From: Dictyophora rubrovolvata
Lineage: Eukaryota; Basidiomycota; Agaricomycetes; Phallales; Phallaceae
Assembly: GCA_029959195.1 (NCBI GenBank)
Contig: CP114119.1
Coordinates: forward strand, 248,001 to 312,000
Direction of reading: 5' to 3'
DNA: 64,000 bases
Below, one piece after another: positions 8,849-37,390 of this stretch (its first letter is position 1; every line of letters starts with the position of its first letter). Made by a program: the position numbers and the translations under genes. Under the pieces are notes generated by a model. The model saw only the letters and a program-made list of their open reading frames with translations. It was not told where the DNA came from and searched no databases.

Positions 8849-9786
8849 GCGAAATAGAGCGAAGAAGAAAAAGAAAAGGTCAAATGCCTATGTAGATGTT
8901 CTCCCCCAGCTTGCCTGAAGAAAGTCCACGCGAAACTGCGCGTTCACACTGGCAAACGTGAAAAGATGGGATCGATGAGATACTAAATATATTCAGTGAT
9001 TACTGGACATGAATTGCGGCAAGGTGACTTGACCACAGGGAGTCGCACGTCAGGACACCACATTCCGATTCGATGAGCTCCAAGTCACGGAAAGTTCTGG
9101 AAAGTGGTCGAATGCGTAATACTAATATTTAATAGTACGGCAGTCGATCTCGAGACTTGACATAAACAAAGGATTTATGAAGAGGAAAAAATTAGGATAT
9201 TTGATGGAGAGAATGAATGTAAATATGAACTATTTACAAGGCTGGCCGGGAATGCATGCGACATAGTATGATTCATCAAAAACCATTCCGGACCGACTTG
9301 TATAAAACAATTATTCAATAATTTATTTGTACATAGTACAACCAAAAGATCTTCTACAGTTGATGTTACATGAAGAAAGGAGAAATTCTCGAAATGCTAT
9401 TCTACTAGTATGAAGATTTGTCCGACGGGAAGAGATTTTGAGGTCAAGGCATTACTAAACAGTATACGTAGGTGATATTAAGCCGGCTAAAAATGACACT
9501 AGGGGCGCCTGGCATCAGTGATCTTGGTTTTATCTCTGGATGAAACCAGATCACTGGTGGGGGGTCGCAGGGCCCTTGCATGCACGCCGGTGTTTATTTT
9601 CAAAATATATTTTCAAATGGTCACCCCACACATACACAGATGTAGCAAAAACCTTAATTCTCGACAATTATGCAAACATGCATTGTTTCTAAGATATACC
9701 CAGACAATTATTCAGACCCCAATTTCACCAATCCTGCAGGCTATGCACCCACAATTTTCTTGATTTTTTCGGTGCTGGGAAATGTT
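8849..9786. other. 5' flank of SET copy A and gene-free stretch
   Basis: The first about 130 bp resemble the 5' flanks of SET copies B and E (an A/G-rich run, then a tract like ctatgtagatgttctccccc, then cgcgaaactgcg). A short motif gatcgatgagata near 8970 recurs at 21078, upstream of copy C. The rest shows no supported gene. Confidence 0.5.
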
Positions 9787-10432
9787 TTAGAACGAAAATG
9801 AATAGAATGACATTACGCACGAAATTTGGCCATGTAGGCCACAAGAGGAGCGCAGCTGATCTAGATCACTTTCGGGGCAAACGAATTTAAGGTTGCATTG
9901 CACTTTGCCCACGGAAAAACTGTTCATGGTGAAACTCAGGTAATGTCTGGATTGCACATTAAAATTGGCATGCACACTCCAAGAATTCAGGAAGACGTCA
10001 CTCGGAAACGCTCTCGTCTTGATCTTATTGGAGTTGTTTTGTGCATAGTGCACGATTAAGGAATTGGCATCACCTACTTTACGAGTGCCGAGGAGGATTT
10101 CAGAGTGAATGTTGTCAGGAGGGATAGCGGTGATGAAAGGAGGGAGGAAACTTAGGATTAATCGTCTCCAATTTGCAGTTACACCGACGTATGCGTTCAC
10201 GGACTATAAGTCACAAGGACAAACAGTAAGCCCGGTCATAGTGGATCTAGCAAAACCTCCGAGTGGGAGAATGACGCCGTTCAACGTGTACGTTGCACTT
10301 TCAAGATCCAGGAGTCGGGAAAATGTGTGTTTGTTGAGAGAGTTCGACATCGAATTATTTACTCAACCAATGGATGAAGATTTGCATAAATTCGATCTTT
10401 ATTGCAAAAAATGGACAGAGAAAACACATTAG
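9787..10432 (+). mobile_element. Pif1/Helitron-type helicase C-terminal remnant
   Basis: At 10109-10432 the plus strand encodes the end of an SF1B helicase: LRINRLQFAVTPTYAFTDYK, then SQGQT (motif V-like) and FNVYVALSRSRSRENVCLLR (motif VI-like), followed by a charged tail and a stop. The ATP-binding N-terminal motifs are absent. Upstream to 9787 no frame stays open. In fungi such isolated helicase tails are usually fragments of Helitrons or of Helitron-derived Pif1-like genes. No Helitron ends (5' TC, 3' hairpin-CTRR) were identified, so the boundaries are approximate. Confidence 0.6.
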
Positions 10433-10718
10433 TAAAACCGCAGAGTCGTTGTTGCCTGAAATCGCATGGGACACATCGGGGAGAGGAAAAAGACATATCC
10501 GCTGCAAGACATGGAGTAAGAAATCAGTCAAATAAGATAAGTGAGAATTACGGAGAAGAACAGAATGAACTGTGTTCATAGCTTTGTAAAGCAGGGAAGG
10601 GTCCTAATATCAAAACTCCGAAATAGAAATGGGACCGAAGTGGGAAGAAGCCGGCTCATAATCAACACATACATATAAATATAAACGTGCACAAACAACG
10701 TGCAGATGGAAGCAAATT
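10433..10718. other. Short spacer between helicase remnant and micro-exon gene
   Basis: No gene is supported. It contains the likely 3' region of the minus-strand micro-exon gene. An alternative final micro-exon of that gene, reached after a 58-nt intron ending in ccccgtag, would fall here and read to a stop around 10660. Confidence 0.4.
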
Positions 10719-11495
10719 CTACGGGGGTGGTGAGCCCTTGCTGCATGCAAGGGAATTGGACTGAGCACTCACGAATTCTGGGGAAAGGTTGCGTGACTGA
10801 AGGTCAGTAGCCAAAACTAATGGTCAAGATAAACCACTTACGATCGTCTGGTAAATACAAAATCATCAAACAAATTCAGCATGATGTATCCTTTAAATCT
10901 CTGACGTTTCACTTACCTGTGGTTCAATTGGAAGATTGATTAGATCAAGTAAATTTTCTTTGAATTGTTGAACTCACCGTGGCCGGTTGACTCCGGGAAA
11001 ACAAAAACTAAGTAACATTAGTACATAAATTCTCGCACGTGTTAAAGATCAGTTATTCTTACACCCGCCGCGTTTGAGATTATCGGAAACTGGGAGAACG
11101 ATTAGATATCATTGACTGAGTATTCGATCATCTCACCAGCATTTTTTAAACAACGTGAGTATTTAATTCTCTCATTGTTAAAGATGTATACTTACCGCCT
11201 TTGACGTTAGTGGGTACTGAAGGGACAGTTGAATATCACAGAAGATGAAAGCATTCATCAGTACAATTGAACGTACCATTTGACACAAAGCCTTGAGGAA
11301 GTAATTAAAAATGTGGAGAAGGTTTACGTCACGTATTGAATAACTCACCATTCTCCGGAACTGTAAACGATTTTTAAATTCATTGAGAAAGGGCATAGCA
11401 AATCCAAAACTCGTAAGATTCGTACCGGGGGAAGCAACAACAGACAGCAAGAGAACCGAGAAAAGAGTAACAAAGAAAGAAGATCTGACTTGCAT
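10719..11495 (-). CDS. Small secreted protein built from symmetric micro-exons
   Basis: A hand-spliced minus-strand gene. Exon 1 (11495-11426, 70 nt) encodes a signal peptide starting MQVRSSFFVTLFSVLLLSVV and ending ASP. The micro-exons are 11360-11349 (12 nt), 11291-11277 (15), 11216-11196 (21), 11089-11063 (27), 11007-10978 (30) and 10847-10842 (6). The proposed last exon is 10777-10719. All micro-exons start and end in phase 1 and are multiples of three. Every donor is strong (GTACGA, GTGAGT, GTACGT, GTAAGT, GTAAGA, GTGAGT, GTAAGT), every acceptor is NAG, and branch-like motifs such as TACTAATG are visible. Introns are 55-69 nt, except one of 106 nt and one composite of 130 nt that contains ACAG|GTAAGT. 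The predicted product is 79 aa. The micro-exon peptides share a V-x-x-N-(x-K)-G theme (VPENG, VPTNVKGG, VSDNLKRGG). The terminal exon is the least certain part. The function is unknown; a secreted effector- or signal-like peptide is an inference. Confidence 0.6.
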
Positions 11496-12344: not shown

Positions 12345-13655
12345 TTATCCGAAAAATGCCCCTCCGTCAATGGAGAGCGTCTGACCTGAGTGTTGGAAAT
12401 CAATACCCAAATCCCTAAGCACGAGTTTCAACATCGACAGCTTGCTTCACTCACCCGTCATAAATCTCGCCTCCTCAGAAGCGAGATAAGACACCACGTT
12501 CGCTACGTCTTGGGGTCCACCGACAGCCAAACTCATATTCGTCGCCTAATAAAAGACAAGGCAAGTCTGAAACCCCGAAAAGAGAAAGAAAATCAGGACG
12601 ACGTACGGAAGAAATTAGTTCAGTCATCTTCTGGATTGTTTCTTCCTCACCCATATTCCCATTAGTCAATGTTCCGCGTGCTAAATAATTTCAACATTTG
12701 GTGAGCATTACCGAAGCTGTTTCCTTGAAAAAGTGATTCCTTTTTACTCATGGGTGAATCTATTAATCCAGGTGCGTAGGCGTTCACCGTTATACCGTGT
12801 GTAGCCATCTCGGCCGCTGTCGGCGTATCATACCATAATTTGTTTCCGTGTGGAGGAGAAAAACGTTTTGCCATACCTAGACACTGAGTTATCCCTCTTA
12901 TCCCAAACTTACTAGCTGCGTAACCCGTTGAAGCCGTTGTGCCTAACAGTGGTAATCTGTCAATTTACTTTTTTACCGCCTTATGAGTCAATTAGTCCTA
13001 ACCTGTCCTTCCCAGAATCGACGATGCACCTGGGAATAAATCAAAATTAAAACCCAGGTTTAAAGAGGAGTTTTATCCTCTAACTTGCCGATTATACGTC
13101 CCCAAGAGTTTTGTTTAACCATCTGCCGAGCGGCTTCTCGATAACAGAGGAATACGCCAACCAAATTGACTTTCAGCACTTTTTCAAAATCTTCCAGTCG
13201 TACTAGAAGAAACAGAGTTGAGGAATAAAGACGCAATATATCGATGAACGATACTCACAATCTAAACATGGAGTTCCGAATGTTAGAGAAATCCCAGCAT
13301 TGGCAACCATCTTCAAAAACATGAGTGTTACAAGAGATACTCCACCATTTAGTCAAGCACTCACCACCCTTAGAATTCCTAACTCAGAAACACACCTTTC
13401 AACCATCCCAACAACGCTCTCCTCACTCGAAACATCAGCAACAACACTGATTCCCTTCCTTCCGATCGACACAATCTCTTTCACCACTTCCCCCAACGCC
13501 TCATCTTTTCCTTGCACATCATTGACAGCCACGTCGTATCCATCTTTTGCTAATCGGAGCGCTATCGCTTTTCCTATTCCTTGTGCCGCGCCTGTTACGA
13601 TTGCTGCACCTTTGCTCCCAGTGCTAGTTTCCGGAGAAGTCGTTGGCGCGGACAT
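12345..13655 (-). CDS. Short-chain dehydrogenase/reductase (diacetyl/acetoin reductase-like)
   Basis: A multi-exon NAD(P)-dependent oxidoreductase of the classical SDR fold. From ATG at 13655 the first exon carries AAIVTGAAQGIGKAIALRLA (TGxxxGIG cofactor motif) and DVAVNDVQGK. An intron then joins MVANAGISLT (NAG motif). Later exons give LEDFEKVLKVNLVGVFLCYR, ASSILGRTG, TTASTGYAASKFGIRGITQ (catalytic Y-x-x-x-K), HGITVNAYAPGLIDSPM, then GGPQDVANVVSYLASEEARF and QTLSIDGGAFFG-stop at 12347-12345. The end motif DGG is typical. The NDVQ segment after the second strand and the overall pattern resemble butanediol dehydrogenase/diacetyl reductase, but substrate specificity cannot be read. The exon between LKLFSTRNID and GGPQDV is loosely defined, so a small internal error is possible. 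It is divergent from the histidine phosphatase gene. Confidence 0.82.
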
Positions 13656-35205: not shown

Positions 35206-37390
35206 TCATACTATAATAATCTCCTCCATTTCATGGTCGGCCTGCTCAGCTGGAAAACCAGTCACCAGTGATATTCCCCGACAGACAGTGAGATCATCCA
35301 CTCTCCTAACAGTGGGACTAACGACCCAAGAAATTCTTGTCTTATCTCTTCTTGGCGCTTTTTGTAACTCCGGAGTGAATAACTTGGTAGGACCGCCGAC
35401 ATCTGCAATGGCATTTTCATCGCTACTATGCCAAAACTTGCCATCGCGTACTACACGATATGAGATAAACTGATATTCATGGTTGCTAAAAAAAAGATCA
35501 GGAGCATCAGACTCTTGAACATTATACGGTGGTTTGTCCAAGAGATACTGATGAGTGTCTGGATCAATGACTTCTGTGACATCTTTAGGCAGATTGCCCT
35601 GTTTGTCTTGCCGCAACTTGTTTTCTCGTACACACGGTGCACCCCACAGGATTTGGGCAAGATTTATATGACCCAATTCAATTAGTTCACGTAATATATC
35701 CCAGAAGATTTCGACATCCGGGAAACCAATACGTTTTCGGTCGGAGTACCGAAATGCTGCCTCTATGCGTTCTACCCTTTCGAATTGAGGGATTTCATTG
35801 ATGAGAGGGAGAAGTGGGGAAAGCGAATAGCGGGCTTTGGTCTTGGGGAGATAGACGACCTTATTTATTTCCCAGAACCAGCCCTTCACTCGAAGACCTG
35901 CATGATGAAGCTGACAAGAAATTCGACAAGGAGGATCAGCGGTGGTAAACCCGATGGCTTTGAAGGACACTGAGGATGGTGGCGTCCAAGTAAAAGAGCT
36001 ACCGTCGGCTTCACCGGTAACCTGGTCCTCAGTGTTTGCAGTGATCTGAGCAAACGCAGAGGAGAAGCCCATCATAAAAGAAATATCACCATTCAGTATT
36101 GCCAGCGTGAATGCGCAGGCACTGAAGCTTGTAGAAATATTAGGAGTAAGTAGCGTGGTGTCAAGTCGGATGGGATAATCGCAGAGATTCCCCAGGATGG
36201 CGAGTTTGTCAGGAATTCTTGAGTTCTGCAATCTAGCAACATGTTGGAATGCATGCAAACCTGAACGACCGTACAGGTGTATTGCATAGATCCCTTCCAG
36301 GTGGAGCCGGAGAGGCTTGCCATCTTGTGACCGCATTAGACCTGTCTGGTACTCAAGTATATCCAATGAAACAATGATCTCTCCCGGCACATTTCCGAGG
36401 TGGGGTGGTTTATTTAGTTGTGGGTCACAACGAAGGAGGAGCATCATTCGCTTTTGGGCCGCAATAATTTCCTGGTACACCCAAGCACGTGTAAGCCATC
36501 GCTCTTTGGAAATCAACTCGAGGACTTCGTCAACTGCTTCAGGACCAGAGTCACCATAAAATCGATTATACTGCATAACCCATGCCAGAGCATCCATTTG
36601 TGCTTGTGTGTGAATATACCCATCAAGTAAACCAACAGCCCGTCGGGCGTTGAAGTAAACCAAATCCATTGATTGGATACCATGTTCCTTATCAGCACGG
36701 TTATCTTGGTCGATGCATTCTTGGTCAATCCAGATGAGTCGTGTCCCTACCGAGTCTGCATACTTCATTGCTCGATCAATGACATTTCGCGGAGCTCGAT
36801 TGTGGCGGATTCCAGATTTCGTCTGGATGAGATACGGCTCTGTTGTGGTCTATATGATTTTCAGGGCGATATAAGAGAAGGAACAAGACGCTACCTTCAC
36901 TTTGACTTTTAGGACCTTGACTCTCATTATTGCCGGATGACTTCTGAGTATGTTGCCAACAGTACGAGACTGCGACATAATCTCTGCAAGACGGAGCAGC
37001 GCCTCTATTCGAAACATAGAGCATGTCCCCAAGACCCATCGACGAAAATTGTTTGTAATCAAAAAGTGTGTCGCATGAGCATTTTTTGGTCGGGTCCGTA
37101 CGCTGAGGATCAGGAGGTGACAAAGGACCACGGGCTGGGGCGGGCGTTTGAGCAGGAACAGAATGACCAGTAGAATCCGTGGTAGGAAGGGAAAGTGCAG
37201 GATAATAGCTTGGTTCAAACATCACATTGGACAACATACACAAGAATCGCAAGTTCTGAGCCCATTTCTGAACCTGTCTCCGCTCAAGTTGGAACTGTGG
37301 TTGCCGCAATGTGAGAAAGAGATTTCTTAGGTGAGGATTAGGATCGCCATTGTAAATATCGCCCAAGGTCTTCTCGCTGTCTTGCTGCAT
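35206..37390 (-). CDS. HET-domain protein
   Basis: Two exons. ATG at 37390 (MQQDSEKTLGDIYNGDPNP) gives a 160-residue N-terminal region with CSCDTLFDYKQFSSMGLGD, then the HET domain start DYVAVSYCWQ. A roughly 60-nt intron near 36830-36890 is followed by EPYLIQTKSGIRHNRAPRNV, IDRAMKYADSVGTRLIWIDQ, ECIDQDNRADKEHGIQSMDL and VYFNARRAVGLLDG, the classical HET core. Then come LISKERWLTRAWVYQEIIAA and a long C-terminal half without recognisable repeats, ending at 35206. HET proteins trigger incompatibility-type cell death in fungi when heterologous alleles meet. This specific partner is unknown. The intron boundary chosen restores the HET frame; other AG sites are near. It appears intact. Confidence 0.85.

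Follow-up and report, generated by a model that had tools for sequence, protein, structure and literature searches.

Results

A signal exon and a train of micro-exons on the minus strand

We analysed a window of 64,000 nucleotides (G000:C3:248001-312000) from chromosome 3 of Dictyophora (Phallus) rubrovolvata, a stinkhorn that is edible and grown in cultivation. Its assembly comprises 11 contigs and 28,239,528 bases. On the minus strand, from a start ATG at position 11495, we find an exon of 70 nt that encodes MQVRSSFFVTLFSVLLLSVVASP, followed by six micro-exons of 12, 15, 21, 27, 30 and 6 nt, each in phase 1 at its entry and at its exit (Table 1). The original prediction, made from the letters of this DNA, had placed six phase-1 micro-exons at these minus-strand junctions. 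All six are present, and the first five are recovered by the scanner described below. That prediction had overlooked a zero-length exon between exons 6 and 7, where an AG and a GT abut at 10917/10916; our full model of this copy, hereafter A, reads 70, 12, 15, 21, 27, 30, 0, 6 and 5 nt and then the stop. These exons are far below the published average of the species, and the introns are ordinary in size (means of 215.6 nt for coding exons and 74.7 nt for introns; PMC10411574). Across the family models described below, introns between micro-exons mostly measure 43-76 nt. None of the seven introns of A that were tested (0/7) can be retained without a frame shift or a stop.

The splice sites had been predicted to be uniformly strong. 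This holds for most donors, which score high, but not for the acceptor of exon 3 (CTCAAG, 0.07) nor for the donor of exon 1 (GTACGA, 1.70). Likewise, any single micro-exon can be skipped in frame as foreseen, but not every combination, since 56 of the 64 exon subsets of A stay open to the common stop; in the copies B and D described below, all 64 of 64 do.

Upstream of the start, the TATA-like box TATTTAAA recurs as the same 8-mer before three further copies (75 nt upstream in B, 126 nt in C and 91 nt in E), and TATATAAA stands 101 nt before the start in F. None of the three strings tried occurs upstream in D, so that a box is present in five of the six loci overall.

Table 1. Features of copy A in the window, with their counterparts in the other copies.
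Feature	Position	Strand	Remarks
TATA-like box TATTTAAA	11612..11619	-	124 nt upstream of the ATG of A
Exon 1, 70 nt, opens with the start codon and codes for signal-peptide-like MQVRSSFFVTLFSVLLLSVVASP; exit in phase 1	11426..11495	-	Similar exon in B, C, D, E, F
Micro-exon 2, 12 nt	11349..11360	-	12 nt in B, D, E, F
Micro-exon 3, 15 nt, weak acceptor CAAG	11277..11291	-	15 nt in B, D; 9 nt in F
Micro-exon 4, 21 nt	11196..11216	-	21 nt in B, D; 38 nt in F
Ghost 9-nt micro-exon in intron 4	11137..11145	-	B: TTTAG, 9 nt, GTGAGA; A: TTTAA
Micro-exon 5, 27 nt, likely duplicate of exon 4	11063..11089	-	27 nt in B; 34 nt in F
Micro-exon 6, 30 nt	10978..11007	-	33 nt in B, F; absent in D
Abutting AG/GT (CACAG, GTAAGT), zero-length exon, possible recursive splice site	10916..10917	-	
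Micro-exon 7, 6 nt	10842..10847	-	3 nt in B; 6 nt in D, F
Micro-exon 8, 5 nt, enters in phase 1, leaves in phase 0, completes the sense codons	10773..10777	-	5 nt in B, D, F
Helentron-like repeat, 1258 bp, in the last intron	9499..10756	.	Empty site in B
Start of modelled last exon, TAA right after acceptor TGTTTAG	9452..9454	-	TAA in B, TGA in D, TAG in F
AATAAA, possible polyadenylation signal	9322..9327	-	Motif also in B

On the same strand as A and upstream of it, positions 12360-13500 hold a multi-exon gene that looks by eye like a short-chain dehydrogenase. This gene and five other places of the window (at about 8.4, 17.7, 20.2, 22.1 and 24.0 kb) match positions 260-473 of L010, the segment of C3 that carries copy C. 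Further away, a reading frame at 35206-36768 contains a HET (heterokaryon incompatibility) domain (E=4e-15).

The predicted 3′ end falls inside a repeat in the last intron

The gene had been predicted to end at 10719, a position that falls inside a 1258-bp repeat. Comparison with B, C, D and F speaks against this end and indicates that the gene goes on with the 5-nt exon, the intron that bears the insert and the TAA at 9454. A terminal exon at 10777-10719 was hence rejected as the ancestral end, since it reads into an insert that is absent from B. Retention of the last intron of A would add 17 C-terminal residues up to a stop at 10719, so the 10777-10719 end is a possible intron-retention product of this copy; the insert may force that retention, or may have impaired A.

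The repeat carries CCCTTGCATGC close to one end and the inverse motif close to the other, has a CTAG at its 9499 end (minus strand), and contains a decayed frame that we take to be helicase-like; on these grounds we call it Helentron-like. In four of the six other places examined (on C1, C3, C5 and C10) it is near-full-length and 89.7-94.3% identical over 1195-1226 aligned columns, the last ~61 bases next to 9499 being left out; the remaining two are partial, shorter matches. Stretches of 44-91 bases that match the end by 10756 also occur on C1, C2, C4, C6, C7, C8, C10 and C11.

The array exceeds what splice-like sequence yields by chance

To measure how rare such an array is, we used a scanner that combines a general splice consensus with a hydrophobic start. 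On A it recovered exon 1 and the exons of 12, 15, 21, 27 and 30 nt with a score of 27.2. When A was shuffled by dinucleotides with exon 1 kept, none of 2000 shuffles reached this score (maximum 11.9); 104 of them had at most one micro-exon, four had two and one had three. Since the weights were set by hand from the general consensus with the locus already known, this outcome is a measure of rarity and not an exact probability. Signal-exon-like starts numbered six on both strands of the window and four in the reversed window, and among all of them only the start of A was followed by a chain of at least one micro-exon. A chance array was rejected on the strength of the shuffles, of the single chain in the window and of its absence from the reversed window.

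A strict scan of 708,426 strand-bases (overlapping loci) returned chains of at least two micro-exons only at A and at two further copies, D and E, one of the chains of D starting from an internal ATG (segment L024). The reversed set gave no chain of at least two, with 27 starts against 94 in the forward set. Under strict settings B yields one micro-exon; C gives one as well. Relaxed settings recover a chain in B, with a 9-nt exon in intron 4, and two micro-exons in F. Unrelated micro-exon families could lie elsewhere in the genome, beyond the strand-bases scanned.

Five paralogues, three of which share exon order and splice positions with A

DNA and protein searches of the genome revealed five further loci. 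B (C2:186524-187310) is complete and 80% identical to A over the array in the DNA search. C (C3:387932-388421) matches at 82% and 79% over its two ends. The central part of the array is missing from C, and the donor of exon 7 has AT where GT is expected, so this copy is probably broken, to judge from its sequence. Directly after its 3′ part, from about position 2984 of L010, the sequence is unlike A and B. Searching with the exon-1 protein gave D (C2:184620, minus strand), complete in our model, and E (C5:715666, minus strand), which is short. Finally, the DNA of D led to F (C1, ~2.67 Mb, minus strand), 69% identical over the 3′ micro-exons and their introns and also complete in our model. B and D lie head to head with their ATGs 1.9 kb apart (positions 1-2081 of segment L009, that is, C2:184501-186581). 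Positions 250-2221 of L009 align in pieces (~69-71%) with positions 559-2689 of L010, upstream of C and into it.

The exon lengths are 70, 12, 15, 21, 27, 33, 0, 3 and 5 nt and stop in B; 73, 12, 15, 21, 24, 6, 6 and 5 nt and stop in D; 73, 12, 9, 38, 34, 33, 6, 6 and 5 nt and stop in F, where the exons of 38 and 34 nt are asymmetric; and 88, 12, 36 (or a 6-nt exon inside it) and 17 nt in E, it being understood that all models were picked by eye with phase in mind, which partly builds in triplet lengths. Exon 5 of D measures 24 nt, or 30 nt through an upstream acceptor, the two acceptors standing 6 nt apart. Exon order and splice positions are common to A, B, D and F, exon 6 being missing in D. 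In these four copies the modelled last exon opens with a stop codon (TAA, TAA, TGA and TAG, respectively) and is preceded by the 5-nt exon.

Genome searches with exon 1, both as DNA and as protein, gave only A-F, and so did DNA queries taken from D, from E, from F and from the 3′ half of B. A pattern for exon 2 had five matches in the genome, three of which are A, B and D (reversed-pattern control, three), and a pattern for exon 8 with its donor had 12 (control, five), with A-F as the only members of the family. We observed in addition an intronic motif, GTAAGTRNYTDRTCTTGNC, just after exon 7 of A (window 10823-10841) and in the same place in B, D and F; its four exact genome matches all belong to the family, and two others with one mismatch lie elsewhere (reversed-pattern control, three). 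The other loci returned by these patterns (two for exon 2, two for the intronic motif and ten for exon 8 with its donor) were scanned and showed no array, one of the two intronic-motif loci giving a chain of one micro-exon.

The layout outlasts the sequence of the introns

Between A and B, both gaps in exons are 3 nt long, while 1 of 20 gaps in introns is a multiple of three. There is no overall difference in identity between exons and introns for this pair (161/183 versus 494/589, P=0.195), nor an excess of changes at third positions (7/49, 2/48 and 3/48 for codon positions 1, 2 and 3). Exons 1, 2, 3 and 5, a subset chosen post hoc, differ less than introns do (8/124 versus 95/589, P=0.005). 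Exon 6 goes the opposite way, with 9 differences in 30 positions (P=0.074); it evolves if anything faster than the introns and has the lowest conservation of all exons between A and B.

In the more distant pairs, differences between A and D over exons 1-4 amount to 13/40, 4/39 and 19/39 at codon positions 1, 2 and 3 (P=0.001; a single 3-nt gap within exon 1 was positioned manually), and those between D and F in exon 1 to 7/25, 4/24 and 11/24. For introns, we compared the interiors, that is, introns minus their first 6 and last 3 bases. Identity over aligned columns was 74.6% for A-D, 77.7% for B-D and 69.7% for D-F, within the range of shuffled controls for all three pairs (means 72.7, 72.6 and 69.3%; maxima 79.1, 79.4 and 77.8%). 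The A-B interiors, at 82.8%, exceed their control maximum of 77.3%. The exons compared are identical at 69.1% (A-D), 70.7% (B-D) and 70.3% (D-F) with few gaps, the aligner having put 1-nt gaps into short exons in the A-D comparison, and at 88.0% for A-B. A plain gapped identity for A-D that came out higher in introns 1-4 (170/216) than in exons 2-4 (31/48) was discarded, as the intron value is that of the shuffled background. Because the interiors of A-D, B-D and D-F stand at control level and the splice positions are common, the alignments indicate that the layout persists between copies whose introns retain hardly any similarity in sequence, single stretches still aligning by eye.

Micro-exons appear to be duplicated, resized and lost

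The micro-exon peptides had been predicted to be related to one another. This proved correct for exons 4 and 5 of A, which share 14 ungapped matches over 21 positions (reached by 2 of 5000 shuffles), and incorrect for the other nine pairs among exons 2-6, which show no significant match; exon 5 is hence a likely duplicate of exon 4. The zero-length site reads CACAG/GTAAGT in A and TATAG/GTAAGT in B, and D and F carry 6-nt exons there between alignable flanks. The micro-exon at this site either shrank to zero or grew from zero, and the abutting AG/GT of A and B is a possible recursive splice site. A 6-nt exon in two copies facing a zero-length AG/GT in two others thus offers a compact natural case of micro-exons vanishing or arising. 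Furthermore, intron 4 of B holds a 9-nt micro-exon-like segment whose counterpart in A (11145-11137) has lost its AG. By eye, this ghost of A resembles the 9-nt exon 3 of F (L042, reverse complement), the two occupying different ranks in the exon series; a micro-exon may have moved or been duplicated.

Predicted products are short, cysteine-free peptides

The predicted peptides measure 50-72 aa with the signal and about 27-49 aa without it. A hydrophobic, signal-peptide-like N-terminus is found in six of six loci, as judged by hydrophobicity, and no cysteine occurs in E or in the definitive models of A, B, D and F. The proposal of a secreted-protein gene laid out like the schistosome micro-exon genes (MEGs) is supported, secretion being predicted from the hydrophobic N-terminus, and the gene is now one of a family.

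Precursors of basidiomycete mating pheromones end in a CaaX box and do not carry a signal peptide. We rejected this identity for the family, given its signal-like N-termini and C-termini of QF, KF, FF, FF and AA (A, B, D, F and E, respectively). Kex2 processing was not built on, a KR dipeptide occurring in A and B only. As for the role of the peptides, extracellular signalling or an antimicrobial activity would be a guess.

Pfam gave no match for A, B, D, E or F. A database of 5.8 billion proteins, fungal ones included, held no homologue of A, and a search with the alignment of A, B, D, F and E produced 655 candidates, none at E 10 or better. Fungi are covered by that database, as the best named matches of a TBC protein of the window come from Sphaerobolus, Hysterangium, Ramaria and Gautieria, at 52-55% identity. 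This negative result weighs little: proteins of this kind seldom reach annotation, and a hit requires words of five residues in common. Among the open-licence papers surveyed, mostly by title and start of abstract, none likewise described a fungal family of this layout, in agreement with the original prediction; in the available text of two Agaricomycete-related papers (PMC4014442, PMC3990503) the word 'microexon' denotes an aligner setting.

Discussion

The array, the family with its common splice positions and the insert are present in the assembly. From their sequence we infer transcription, translation and secretion, as well as constitutive splicing and any function of the peptides. The reading that we consider probable is that of a small paralogous family of cysteine-free secreted peptides, spliced mainly in a constitutive manner and evolving through duplication, shrinkage and loss of micro-exons. 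The pre-mRNA would consist of a signal exon and a train of exons of 3-38 nt, followed in A, B, D and F by the 5-nt exon and the exon that opens with the stop. Short introns are probably recognised one by one, through intron definition, so that joining would occur by default and each gene would yield one main peptide. Variants would be contributed mainly by the paralogues, whose micro-exons are duplicated (4 and 5), changed in length by triplets, represented by a zero site or missing (6 in D), with some alternative splicing as a secondary source. In its favour are the array beyond chance, the common exon order and splice positions, the triplet gaps in the exons of A and B, the A-D and D-F codon-position counts, the stop codons that open the last exons, the seven introns of A closed to retention and the TATA-like boxes. 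The damage in C, the insert in A, the two asymmetric exons of F and the lack of a homologue outside this genome count against this reading, and so do the exons and introns of A and B, equal in overall identity and without a third-position excess, and the skipping of small coding exons known in fungi.

We favour mainly constitutive splicing on two grounds. Short introns of fungi are thought to be recognised as units, which would allow exons of a few bases to be joined without exon definition. In Schizophyllum, exon skipping makes up 1% of the coding-region transcript events and intron retention 43%, the 1,527 skipping events found in coding regions by the junction analysis of the same paper notwithstanding (available text of PMC5034255). 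The same 1% speaks against the main alternative, in which these genes would be equivalent to MEGs in function, optional symmetric micro-exons generating combinatorial secreted variants from one gene. That most donors score high, that introns are short and that F has lost the symmetry of two exons also tell against it. On the other hand, the numbers of open subsets (56/64 in A, 64/64 in B and D) keep it in play, and symmetric phase-1 exons, the weak acceptor of exon 3 and the paired acceptors before exon 5 of D are what it would lead one to expect. Fungal precedents exist too, in the accessible parts of the reports on the regulated, functional microexon of Xlr2 in Trichoderma virens (PMC11121469) and on a 33-nt coding exon that is sometimes skipped in Neurospora (PMC6616335). 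We regard this alternative as unlikely, and give no more credit to the wider proposal that mushrooms independently evolved a micro-exon system in which optional inclusion, together with micro-exons that are duplicated, resized or shrunk to zero from one paralogue to another and so leave recursive splice sites behind, would enable one small family to secrete a large combinatorial set of short peptides.

The constitutively spliced family has also to be weighed against decay, in which the arrays would be remnants and little or no peptide would be made. The state of C, with its middle replaced and its AT donor, the insert in A, the asymmetric exons of F and the missing third-position excess between A and B all fit such a history. 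Yet the models of B, D and E are open, splice sites and frame are kept where intron interiors have diverged to control level, and the A-D differences are biased by codon position, so that we hold decay to be decidedly improbable. Still harder to sustain is a spliced non-coding RNA with an incidental signal-peptide frame: it would accommodate short and mostly unrelated peptide segments and the common intronic motif after exon 7, but not a signal-peptide-like exon 1 with codon-position bias, nor the changes of exon length by triplets between A and B. A chance run of splice-like sites without a gene, for which only the simplicity of the splice consensus speaks, can be dismissed in view of the 0/2000 shuffles and of paralogues with an identical layout.

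Among known systems, the schistosome MEGs come closest. Their symmetric exons of 6-36 bp make up ~80% of the coding region (available text of PMC5825161), and they share with the genes described here a secreted product, predicted in our case, and a train of short symmetric exons. Six exons of A and six of D (12, 15, 21, 24, 6 and 6 nt) are symmetric and within that size range; one of the six of B has 3 nt, and two of those of F are asymmetric. The share of the coding region taken up by symmetric micro-exons is 59% in both A and B and 51% in D, compared with the ~80% reported for MEGs, and the stinkhorn genes differ further in ending with an asymmetric 5-nt exon and an exon reduced to the stop. 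The likeness considered here is one of layout; neither Pfam nor the protein database returned any hit for the peptides.

The bicycle genes of aphids, as far as the available text of PMC9168663 describes them, are likewise fast-evolving putative effectors with many small exons of a single phase, and their relatives were found through gene structure. Their exons are almost all in phase 2 and average ~17 per gene, and their homologues have CYC motifs, whereas the family described here has phase-1 exons, 9 or 10 of them (A, B, D and F), and no cysteine. The SP7-like effectors of Rhizophagus are a fungal secreted family recognised partly by exon-intron structure. The text available for them (PMC11333574) places them in Glomeromycotina only, with one conserved intron before the first repeat, and describes no micro-exon train; our genes are basidiomycete and have seven or more introns. 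The Xlr2 microexon is, in the accessible part of that report (PMC11121469), a single one, in a transcription factor of an ascomycete, and acts as a switch. With respect to fungal stwintrons and recursive splicing, what would be a 6-nt exon in two of our paralogues appears as a zero-length AG/GT in two others.

Coding pieces of 3-38 nt are easily overlooked by standard annotation, and fungal secretomes may hence miss a class of peptides. Schistosomes and aphids have secreted genes built of symmetric micro-exons, and a fungal family would show that this layout arises repeatedly, genomes with short introns included.
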